Source of the DNA: Roseateles sp.
GTDB taxonomy: Bacteria; Pseudomonadota; Gammaproteobacteria; Burkholderiales; Burkholderiaceae_C
DNA length: 64,000 nt
Reading direction: 5' to 3'
NCBI GenBank assembly: GCA_015657635.1
Contig: JACDQM010000180.1
Coordinates: 1 to 64,000 of the forward strand
The position numbers were made by a program, and so were the translations under genes. Positions 24,787 to 64,000 of the stretch are shown here, piece by piece (positions within the stretch are counted from its first letter, which is position 1; each line of letters begins with the position of its first letter). The notes beneath the pieces are model-generated. The model saw only the letters and a program-made list of their open reading frames with translations, had not been told where the DNA came from and searched no databases.

Positions 24787-27700
24787 TCAGTCGATCAGCT
24801 CGCGCCACGAACTGCGGCGCGCTGTACCAGGCTGAGCCAATGCAGCACTCTGCGGCACTGTCTCATTGCCAGCGTCAACCTTCGTCACGATGGTCACCGG
24901 CCCCTTGCCCAGCTGAACGGTACTCAAACCGGCCACCATCGAGTCGAGGGACTTGGACGCGGCCTTGCCGGTCACGATGTCCAGCTGGTAGAGCCACGCC
25001 GTCCCACTGCTGCCCGCCTCGCAATCCGTTGCAGAGTTGCCCGGCACGTTGCCTGCAGCCGTCAGCGTATTGAAGGAGATCTGCATGTCCACGTTGATGC
25101 GCTCACGCTCCGAGAGGAGGTCGACGTACCAGCCATTGTTGACCGACCAGTCCACTGGCGCAGGCGGATCGATCTTGCGGACACCACCCACCGTTGCCAA
25201 GGTCTGCTTCACCAGCGTGCCGCCGGCCCGAACATCGCCCAGCCCAGTCGAGCTCAGCGAATCCTTGATGGCATAGATGCTCTGCACCGCCGTACTGGTC
25301 ACGTCGCTGGTGCCCAGATATCGCCCAGTGCCAGCGTAGACGACCGCATGGCGGCTTCCGTTGGCCTCGATTTCAGCCAGTTGCAGCTGAGTCGTGATCG
25401 GCTGAGGCACACCCGCCACCAGCAGCTGCGCCAGCTTGAAGGCCTGCTCCTTGGGCTCCAGATTGCCGTCGATATCGAAACGCCAGATATTGCCTTGCAG
25501 ATCGCCAGCGTAGAAGCGCGTCGCCAGGTTGTCCGCATCGGAATCGACCCAGGCATTGAGTTTGGTCAAACCACTGGGACTGCCCGCAGAGCCCACGCCC
25601 GTGCTGATGTCCTTCAGCAATGCACCGGTCAACGCATCGACGACGAACAGGTGGCCTTGCCCATCAGCGTTGTTGTGCCCCGAGCTGAAGACAACGACCC
25701 AGGTGCCGTCCTTGCGCTTCGTGATGATCGGATTGCCATAGCTCAGCCCAAGGTTGGCGTTCGAGAACTCCCACAAGGCTTGCGGGTTGTTGGGGTCCGT
25801 GATGTCGAGCGCGAAATAGGCGTTGCCACCGGCATTCAGCCCGCCGACCAGAATGGTGCGCCAACTGCCACCCATGAAGACGTCGCCCACTACAGGCGTG
25901 GCGTCCACCGTGTAGAAGTGCTTGGATTCGTAGAAACTGTCGGCCAGGCGATAGAGCTTGCCCATCACGGCACGGGGTACGTAAGCCCAGCGCTCGGTGC
26001 CATCGACCGCATTGAACGCATGCAGCATGCCGTCGTTGGCACCTACATACAAGGTCGGAGCTCGGCTTGCGCGTGCCGCCTTGAAACTGGCGTAGCCGTT
26101 CTCCACATATTGAAAGCTCGGCTTGCCGACATAGACCGGCGACGAGTTCACGATGTCACCGAGCACTCGAGCGCGCGTCCGGTACTGCGGCTGGGGCTGG
26201 CCGCGCAGGAAGCTCACCATATTGGCGCCGGAGTTGACATCCGCGAGTGCGCTGCCTGTCAACCCAGCGCATTGGGTGAGCGTCGGAGACTTCGAGCAGG
26301 CATTGTCGAACATGGCCTTTTCGGTCGCGTTCATCGTGGCATAGACAAAGGGCTCGAGGCTCCCGCCATTGCCACCACCGGCCGGACGGAAGTGGTAGAT
26401 CGTGCGGACCGTCGATGCCGTCAGCTTCTCCCCTGCCGACCAATCCGCCAGGTCAACCGGGTTGCCGGTGCTGTCGAGCTTGGATGTTGCCACCTCGCCC
26501 GTCGTGGTGTTGATCTTGTAGGACTTCAGGTCGCCGGTCCATTCGGCCGACTTGAACTGGGCGATGTAGACGCCGTTATCGCCCTCCACCGGCTGCAGCG
26601 TGCTGGTCGCGGCAGCCGATGAGGTGCCGACGACCGCCTTGATGGAGTTCAGCGCCGCAGCCAAGCTGGCGGCCAAGGTGGTCGGGTCACTGGCACTGAA
26701 ATAGCGCCCACGCCCGTTCACAGCCGCATGCCAAAGGTCGTCGATGTTCACCGCGCCGCCATCGCTGCTCGGAACCGGCCAATTCTTGTTGCCATTGACC
26801 AGGTCCGCAAAATCACCCGTCGTCTGCGTCTCATACGCCGGGTCGTATTTGAACGTTCCGTTCACGCCCAGGCTGAGCGTGAAGGTGGTCATGTGCTGCC
26901 AGTTGGCCGTGTCTTTGCCGAGCGCCTTGACATCGTTCTCGCACACCGACTTGCCCAGGGCGCCGGTGCAGTTGCTGAGGGAGCTGTCGCGCAAGTCTGT
27001 CTTGTAGTAGTACATCGCCACGTCAGACAGGCTGTCGAGCGAGCCGCCCACCGTGGTGGTGGTGGTGACAGTCTTGGTGCCCACAGTTTCGGTCGGCGTG
27101 CTGTTCGTGACGGTCGCCGTGCCAGCGTTATTGGTGCCTGAAGCGGAGGTTGGGCCAACGCTGACGGTCGAGGTGCTCACCGCCGCGCTGACGATAGCTG
27201 TGTTGGACGGCGCGCTTGCTGCACAGCCTTGCACCACAGGCGCGCCGGAGGCCACCCACGGCGTGAAGTCGGTTCCCGCAGAAGTGTTGAAAGGCGTGGC
27301 CGTGCTCGTGGTTGCGCTGGTGGTGGTGGTGCCGGCCGAGGTGGTCACATTGGGCGTTCCGGTGCCTGTCACGTCAGAGCTCAGAACGCCGTCCACGTAG
27401 GTGATGGTGCGGGTGTAAGGGGTGACGGTGGTGACGTTTTGCACCAGGGTCGTCGACCAGGTGTTGAGCGTGCTGGTGCCACTGCTGTTGATGCTGCGCT
27501 GATCGCGCCTCATCTGCTGCGCTGATACCCGTCCCTGCCCAGCCGGGCAGCCGCTCGGCGCGAACAGCGTGGTCCCGCGATTGGAATTGGTAGGATTGGA
27601 CGGGATGGGCGTCAGGCCACTCAGCACATAGTAGTAATCATTGCTATCGACAAGCGTGATCGTGTACGAGCCGTTGAACACTGACGGGGTGACTCCGGAG

Positions 27701-62627: not shown

Positions 62628-63284
62628 ATGAACCCCTCGAGCAAGCTCCGCCGCATCTCCAGCACTGACCGCTTGCTATCCAGCTTAGATCACGCCTTGC
62701 GCACCTTGTCGGGCAGCCACAGCGCCGGTCGGACCAACCCGGCAAGCTTGGCCGCACAGACCCAATCGCTCTCGGAACAGGACCGTCAGCTTTCAGGCGC
62801 GCTGATGCGCGTCAACCATGTCGGCGAGGTCTGCGCCCAAGCGCTGTACCAGAGTCAGGCTCTGGTCTGCAGCGATGAAGGCCTGCGCGCGCACTTCGAG
62901 CATGCCGCGCAGGAAGAGGCCGATCACCTGGCCTGGACCCAGCAGCGGCTTGAACAACTCAACACGCACGCCAGCTGGCTGAATCCGGTCTGGTACGGCG
63001 GCGCTTTCGCCATCGGTGCGCTGGCCGGCCTGGCCGGCAACCGATTCAGTCTGGGTTTTGTCGTGGAAACCGAAACCCAGGTCGAGCAGCATCTGGCCAG
63101 TCACCTGGAACGTCTGCCTGAGGCAGACCTGGCCTCGAGGGCCATCGTCGACCAGATGAAGCTGGATGAGCAACGCCATGCTGAGGAAGCCCAGGCGGCG
63201 GGCGCGGCGGATCTACCCGCACCGATCAAGTCACTGATGAGGGTGGCCGCAGCTGTGATGACGCGCACCGCCCACCATATCTGA
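62628..63284 (+). CDS. coq7: Demethoxyubiquinone hydroxylase Coq7
   Basis: Di-iron hydroxylase that adds the C6 hydroxyl in ubiquinone synthesis. The 218-residue protein has carboxylate-bridged ligands in two EXXH-type blocks: [18 protein letters not shown] with [13 protein letters not shown], and [15 protein letters not shown] with [15 protein letters not shown] Leu-rich membrane-binding face ([16 protein letters not shown]) is present. It converges with the OsmC gene, 4 nt apart. Together with ispB it covers part of ubiquinone synthesis in this window. Confidence 0.96.
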
Positions 63285-63288
63285 GGGT

Positions 63289-63711
63289 TCACACCTCGAC
63301 CAACTCGACCGAAGTCGTGATCTCGGCGGTTTTGGCCAGCATGATGCTGGCCGAGCAGTACTTTTCATGCGACAGCGCCACCGCGCGCTCAACCGCAGCA
63401 AGGCTCAACCCCTTGCCGCTGACGACAAAGTGCATGTGGATCTTGGTGAACACTTTGGGATCGGCATCCGCCCGCTCGGCGCTCAGCTTCAGCTGGCAGC
63501 CGCGCACATCGTGACGGCCACGCTTCAGGATCAGCACCACATCGTAGGCGGTGCATCCGCCCGTTCCGGCCAGCACCGTCTCCATCGGGCGCGGCGCCAG
63601 GTTGTGGCCGCCTCCTTCGGGCGCGCCGTCCATGGCCAGCATGTGCCCGCTGCCGGTCTGGGCCACGAACGACATGCCCTGAGTGCCCATCCAATCAACC
63701 GTGCATTCCAT
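63289..63711 (-). CDS. OsmC-family protein (YhfA-like)
   Basis: OsmC/Ohr-fold protein of 140 residues. It has PMETVLAGTGGCTAYDVVLI and LSHEKYCSASIML, giving the two cysteines of the family, and aligns with E. coli YhfA by pattern. OsmC proteins reduce organic hydroperoxides, but the YhfA branch has no proven substrate. ATG 63711 (MECTVDWMG) was chosen to match the family start; ATG 63723 is possible. Confidence 0.88.
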   Translation of the reverse strand: MECTVDWMGTQGMSFVAQTGSGHMLAMDGAPEGGGHNLAPRPMETVLAGTGGCTAYDVVLILKRGRHDVRGCQLKLSAERADADPKVFTKIHMHFVVSGKGLSLAAVERAVALSHEKYCSASIMLAKTAEITTSVELVEV

Positions 63712-63836
63712 AGCTTCTTTCATCTGCAGGCACTCGCCCGCGCCAATTCGCGAATATGAAGAATCGATGACATTCACAGGCATGCATCGCGAATTCGAGG
63801 CAGTTACCTATTTATGCCAATTTGCCAGCAAAAATA

Positions 63837-63866
63837 TTGCAGCGCAGCATTTGCAGGCGATAGAAT
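63837..63866 (+). promoter_or_regulatory. Sigma-70 promoter for a small RNA candidate
   Basis: TTGCAG (63837-63842), 18-nt spacer, TAGAAT (63861-63866). The predicted start is near 63873, directly in front of the structured segment described next. Confidence 0.55.
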
Positions 63867-63872
63867 TCTAGT

Positions 63873-64000
63873 CAGGCTGTTGAAGGCCTTCGGCGAGTTG
63901 GTCTTTCGAGTCCGCCAGCTGGTCTTCAACGCACCGTTTGTCTCCTCCACCGCCTCCATGGTGGATTAAGCCCGAGCCCGCAAGGTCTCGGGCTCTTTTT
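63873..64000 (+). ncRNA. Candidate small RNA with CCUCC loop and intrinsic terminator
   Basis: About 128 nt from a predicted promoter to a terminator. Three stems can be drawn: TTGAAGGCC (63880-63888) with GGTCTTCAA (63921-63929), one G-U pair; TCCACC (63946-63951) with GGTGGA (63960-63965) around the loop GCCTCCAT; and terminator AGCCCGAG (63969-63976) with CTCGGGCT (63987-63994), then CTTTTT at the window edge. TCTCCTCC in the linker and CCTCC in the loop are anti-Shine-Dalgarno-like. No reading frame with a ribosome-binding site is present. It could instead be the leader of a gene just outside the window. Confidence 0.55.

Follow-up and report, generated by a model that had tools for sequence, protein, structure and literature searches.

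A Betaproteobacteria toxic sRNA gene in Roseateles sp. with a putative PhaR operator at its promoter

The 64,000-nucleotide stretch of Roseateles sp. DNA analyzed here, which we call the window, ends in a small RNA (sRNA) gene of three hairpins that stands alone at approximately 63874-64001 and contains two anti-Shine-Dalgarno (anti-SD) stretches. The RNA is an ordinary member of a known sRNA family, Betaproteobacteria toxic sRNA (RF02278). The new part is a testable control circuit for this family, which is supported by genome comparison and begins with a PhaR-like operator palindrome containing the -35 element. PhaR is a repressor that senses granules of the stored bioplastic PHB. We consider it probable that this coq7-osmC-ilvA-linked RF02278 sRNA is repressed by PhaR, derepressed by PHB and blocks Shine-Dalgarno (SD) sites. 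The initial annotation had proposed a structured, free-standing sRNA with anti-SD stretches, which is borne out by the fold and the RF02278 match, and the promoter, two stem-loops and terminator that it placed within about 128 nt are all present in sequence and fold. The linker that it reported, UCUCCUCC, is present but is not all linker, as the foot of SL2 takes up its last three bases. The PhaR-like operator is a feature additional to that annotation.

Table 1. Features of the sRNA locus and its neighbours (window positions)
Feature	Position	Strand	Basis
coq7; landmark common with Bordetella S17	62628..63284	+	PF03232, 143.8 bits
osmC-like gene, divergent neighbour	63289..63783	-	PF02566, 60.2 bits
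Putative promoter: -35 TTGCAG (63837-63842), 18-nt spacer, -10 TAGAAT (63861-63866)	63837..63866	+	by eye; start predicted near A63874, by analogy with S17
PhaR-like operator TTGCAGCGCAGCA over -35; core TGCAGCGCA at 63838-63846	63837..63849	.	published motifs, conservation
Primary sRNA transcript, ~128 nt	63874..64000	+	fold, T run; 3' end 64001, just outside the window; 5' end predicted
SL1 (5' hairpin; outside the Rfam model)	63878..63931	+	fold; hairpin in same-family leaders
Anti-SD stretch 1, UGUCUCCU; linker, largely unpaired	63939..63946	+	sequence, fold
SL2; loop CCUCCA is anti-SD stretch 2 (63953-63958)	63946..63965	+	fold, pair exchanges in relatives
Intrinsic terminator	63969..64000	+	stem 63969-63994, T run to 64001
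RF02278 match, spanning linker, SL2 and terminator; probably the short form after processing	63939..64000	+	54.6 bits; processing by analogy with S17S

Family membership and known relatives

Positions 63939-64000 score 54.6 bits against RF02278, for which the gathering threshold is 50, and 60 bits when the base beyond the window is added. The family's order of parts, a UC-rich linker followed by a hairpin and a terminator, is present in the fold and the alignment, and the identity of the window sRNA as an RF02278 member is settled. Since the match exceeds the curated threshold and members of the family have already been studied, the initial description of an undescribed regulator was wrong. 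NmsRb (RF02877; 25.8 bits, gathering 52) and SorY (RF02651; 16.4 bits, gathering 111) were rejected as below threshold. Three RF02278 matches were found in the window's genome: the window copy, one on contig C188 (53.3 bits) and one on contig C177 (40.8 bits, below threshold). Counting this genome, matches occur in 45 of 60 genomes (above threshold in 32) and in 244 of 399 genomes of the order (above threshold in 144).

As described (PMC11722255), S17 of Bordetella pertussis resembles the window sRNA: it is a promoter-terminator unit beside coq7, ends in a terminator and has two single-stranded anti-SD sites. Its long form with a leader and its short form from the UC-rich linker can be likened to those proposed for the window. 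S17 differs in its longer leader (190-nt long form), in its glycosyltransferase neighbour in place of ilvA and in being Bvg-regulated. The same description places the S17 5' end 7 bp past its -10, with mapped hexamers TTGCAT-17-TACTAT, and reports that cleavage of S17L by RNase E yields S17S, an RNA acting together with Hfq. In the S17 deletion strain 70 of 91 up genes match the single-stranded sites of S17, and S17S was not clearly toxic. S17 adjoins coq7, and position and sequence together make it the probable orthologue of the window copy.

Other relatives have been described in Burkholderia cenocepacia and Neisseria. According to published reports (PMC5688073, PMC4603805), the RF02278 members ncS03, ncS05, ncS27 and ncS62 of B. 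cenocepacia share with the window sRNA the two-hairpin core and the CU-rich linker and loop; ncS27 is processed too, and there are several copies per genome. Unlike the window RNA, three of these four have hardly anything beyond the two-hairpin core. For three copies a "common upstream motif" is mentioned, and toxicity in E. coli upon cloning is reported for Burkholderia members. One of these papers (PMC5688073) describes higher levels of members in biofilm, under starvation and in glucose medium (glucose above starvation per the authors) and slower growth upon ncS27 overexpression, while calling the control of these anti-SD sRNAs unknown. Neisseria NmsRA and NmsRB (RF02877) likewise form three hairpins and have anti-SD sequences in both linker and loop, and repression of mRNAs at the SD has been shown for them (PMC5362039); unlike the window gene they lie in tandem, and the window's score for their model is below gathering, as given above.

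Promoter and PhaR-like operator

The putative window promoter is weak by consensus, since a consensus promoter scan of the sequence did not return the TTGCAG/TAGAAT pair among its matches. By hand count, positions 63834-63850 have three mismatches to the 17-base PhaR motif of Ralstonia eutropha, YTKNTGCRNYGCANMAR, all of them outside the core, and thus lie within the limit of up to three mismatches that the authors of this motif accept (PMC12849132). A related motif, TG[N]TGC[N]3GCAA, was footprinted for PhbF at phbF in H. seropedicae (PMC3206438). The window's genome has a phaR gene (PF07879, 106.5 bits; TIGR01848, 163.8 bits) and 23 strict operator-like sites vs 2 in the control, many of the 23 falling inside predicted frames. 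Neighbours of the strict sites are annotated in part, several of these without a family, and no strict site was found in the phaR locus (L060). From motif and conservation we infer that PhaR would bind the window promoter and act there as a repressor.

One strict PhaR-like site is located just 5' of an sdhC-like gene (PF01127; contig C93, 7448-7460; near 1501 in L047). In the window's genome, PhaR may target the TCA cycle through this gene.

Across the order, the core TGCRNYGCA was found within 170 nt 5' of the sRNA at 91 of 126 loci from genomes with phaR vs 2 of 35 from genomes without it (dinucleotide shuffles, 3.2%), a comparison that treats species as if they were independent, which they are not. 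Within 300 nt the counts are 94/126 and 3/35 (shuffles 5.3%), and for TGCNNNGCA within 170 nt they are 96/126 and 5/35 (shuffles 9.6%). The core was present in the stretch farther 5' at 4 of 159 loci and in the stretch 3' of the sRNA at 12 of 160, two loci being counted at earlier anchors in both cases. phaR itself was found in 53 of the 60 genomes and in 266 of the 399 genomes of the order. We called a genome phaR-negative when it was absent from the list of phaR matches. The 162 sRNA loci comprise 35 phaR-negative ones among the matches listed and 127 phaR-positive ones, which are the best of the same lists plus the genome's own copies, with weaker matches left out; exclusion of L016, whose upstream stretch is short, gives 126. 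In three relatives (L023, L026, L033) a PhaR-like core lies directly before the ilvA start.

The two phaR-negative exceptions come from genomes which are 85% (G158) and 64% (G427) complete, and phaR occurs in other genomes of their genera. Among phaR-positive loci the core was found in most families, with 30/33 in f1, 10/10 in f4, 16/16 in f21, 4/4 in f3, 4/4 in f18, 4/5 in f11, 2/2 in f33, 1/1 in f31, 1/1 in f40, 7/12 in f10 and 7/13 in f32. It is scarce despite phaR in f8 (4/20), f44 (1/3) and f49 (0/2); many genomes of f8 and f32 have several sRNA copies. The phaR-negative loci belong mostly to f50, f44 and f15, and the lineages are therefore not independent. Within genus g142, phaR and the core are both present in G210 and both absent from G330. 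A different near-palindrome, of the kind TATTAGATAATTCTAATA, is located at the -10 of many sRNA promoters in phaR-less f15, f44 and f50 (L093, L097, L105, L111 and others), which suggests that another regulator replaces PhaR in these families.

Searching for a single exact 31-mer from the sRNA family gave at least 120 stretches, and the 80 listed ones were used. These contain 81 sites, four of which have too little upstream DNA; among these listed matches, 65 of 77 sites have the core within 200 nt 5'. Core-bearing genomes among the matches listed include Bordetella genomosp. 2 and 12, Achromobacter, Pandoraea and Cupriavidus gilardii, and six of the seven Cupriavidus loci listed are without a core within 200 nt of the exact-match copy. 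In Achromobacter sp. Root83 (L250) the core lies on the -35 of a promoter TTGCAT-17 nt-TACTAT, with hexamers and spacing equal to those given for S17 (PMC11722255).

The same core is found at phasin genes. At least one core lies within 250 nt 5' of phaP at 49 of 51 loci, many of which have two cores 56-60 nt apart; the 51 are the genome's own locus and those of relatives, a 52nd (L386) having given no phaP in the alignment. Of the two cores at the own phaP promoter, one precedes a TTGCAA and the other is close to the expected start, an arrangement also reported for R. eutropha phaP1 (PMC12849132). Some phasin mRNAs would also carry the sRNA itself: GTCTCCTC occurs within 110 nt past the phaP stop at 21 of the 51 loci vs 0.3% of 20,000 random 110-nt stretches. 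These 3'UTR elements were found in f1 and in one genome each of f4, f21 and f23. In the window's genome, the third RF02278 match begins 17 nt past the phaP stop (Phasin_2, 100.1 bits), the C188 copy has neither its own core nor a phaP 3'UTR position, and the window copy is the only one of the three with its own core. With these two layouts, one a gene under PhaR gating and the other a 3' tail of the mRNA of a main PhaR target, the sRNA would be made once PhaR dissociates from the DNA. A GGGTTTTCCCT-like or AGGGAAAACCCT-like motif was observed near sRNA elements after phaP in L356, L361 and L366, and upstream in L061 and L162.

The near absence of the core at sRNA loci of phaR-less genomes, its presence at nearly all loci of phaP, the classic PhaR target, and its position over the -35, which fits a repressor, speak against the palindrome of this RF02278 sRNA serving another regulator instead, or PhaR activating there. 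We regard this alternative as unlikely, although the operator assignment rests on a motif match, PhaR can activate, as at R. eutropha phaP3 (PMC12849132), and the different palindrome of phaR-less families indicates that the input can change. In B. pertussis, BvgAS raises the S17 level, and PhaR would therefore not be the sole input there; the authors of the S17 study postulate an unidentified repressor of the S17 promoter (PMC11722255). The text of that paper makes no mention of PhaR, PHB or phasin. Repression by PhaR is the reading that we follow below.

Neighbourhood, fold and coding potential

The gene after the sRNA on the same strand is ilvA (PF00291, PF00585), which starts at contig position 64084. 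At 24 loci of the same family, osmC lies 5' on the opposite strand in 22, coq7 lies 5' in 19 and ilvA lies 3' on the same strand in 23; since the stretches around these loci are short, not all of the misses are real losses. The terminator ends up about 80 nt before the ilvA start, and the sRNA could be read as a transcription attenuator in the ilvA leader, which the initial annotation had named as one observation that would count against its proposal. This is very improbable and was rejected, since ilvA is reversed in L029. In addition, other copies of the sRNA do not adjoin ilvA, some of them lying in phaP 3'UTRs, and S17, itself produced as a stable RNA, has a glycosyltransferase gene on one side and coq7 on the other (PMC11722255).

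Positions 63872-64000 fold at -56.3 kcal/mol vs a shuffle mean of -40.35 (sd 3.48), a z of -4.58, and none of 200 shuffles was equally stable. The RF02278 Rfam model begins at the linker, and SL1 was examined in leaders from the window's own family, where the best fold has a hairpin in 28 of 28 despite differing sequences (mean z -2.41; below -1 in 25 and below -2 in 20). The 28 leaders are the 30 core-bearing same-family loci minus two in which the nearest core is too near the sRNA, and the leader starts, placed from the operator position, are predicted ones. SL2 is supported by pair exchange: anchoring succeeded for 146 of 160 sequences, and among these the fifth pair is CG in 80, UA in 23, AU in 11 and UG in 32. 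The outer four pairs are wholly or mainly fixed by the anchoring pattern and carry little information, and the sixth pair is non-standard in 23 of the 146.

A small protein gene is the least plausible reading and was rejected: a 51-aa frame at 63814-63969 overlaps the sRNA and a 32-aa frame was predicted in S17L (PMC11722255), but the ATG at 63814 sits 5' of the promoter, relatives differ in frame and length and share a leader peptide only where the conserved RNA itself spells it, and the leader sequence is not conserved whereas a hairpin is. The absence of a good coding frame noted initially therefore holds.

Proposed circuit and its significance

When PHB is not stored, PhaR would occupy the operator over the -35 and keep the sRNA off. 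Under carbon surplus PHB granules would form and PhaR would be titrated onto them, as described for phaP in R. eutropha, allowing synthesis of the ~128-nt three-hairpin transcript from its own promoter. By analogy with relatives, this transcript would be cleaved by RNase E, probably near UGUCUCC, and the stable 3' product would act together with Hfq. Its two CU-rich stretches would keep ribosomes off catabolic and transport mRNAs by pairing with their SD sites. From the phaP mRNA 3'UTR, a second copy of the sRNA would be released in response to this PhaR signal. A switch that is gated by PHB and lowers catabolism would agree with the reports on S17 and the B. cenocepacia members given above.

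We scanned for targets as GGAGGAGAC followed by ATG within 2-10 nt and obtained nine sites in the window's genome vs one for the reversed pattern, which are too few to prove a target set. Four of the sites precede long frames, which encode a MeaB/B12-binding protein, an FMO-like monooxygenase, an AMP-binding enzyme and a universal stress protein. The MeaB/B12-binding protein gene, with GGAGGAGAC before its ATG, also has a PhaR-like site about 190 nt 5', inside a predicted frame (contig C27, about 26007-26219; L039, L312).

A precedent for the circuit is MmgR of Sinorhizobium meliloti, an sRNA under repression by PhaR (AniA), which binds a similar site in gel shifts (PMC12542648, PMC8401924). 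Binding of PhaR to the mmgR promoter (PMC12542648) means that PhaR is able to govern an sRNA. Unlike the window sRNA, MmgR is alphaproteobacterial and lowers phasin expression. We found no report of a link between RF02278 and PhaR or of a phaP 3'UTR sRNA in the open-licence PMC literature, nor a PhaR or PHB link in three of the four papers naming RF02278.

With somewhat less confidence than for the circuit at the window itself, we favour a broader view in which Betaproteobacteria read their PHB store via PhaR into a riboregulon, where anti-SD sRNAs from PhaR-gated genes and from the phasin mRNA 3'UTR jointly lower uptake and catabolism during storage. PhaR would then be the repressor of S17-type promoters, and PHB status would feed into the "toxic sRNA" family in general. 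The PhaR-like operator and the phasin 3'UTR copies offer one testable answer to how these sRNAs are controlled, namely by PHB granules. If true, this would parallel MmgR of S. meliloti and would link post-transcriptional control of metabolism across a bacterial order with carbon storage, a process relevant to bioplastic production.
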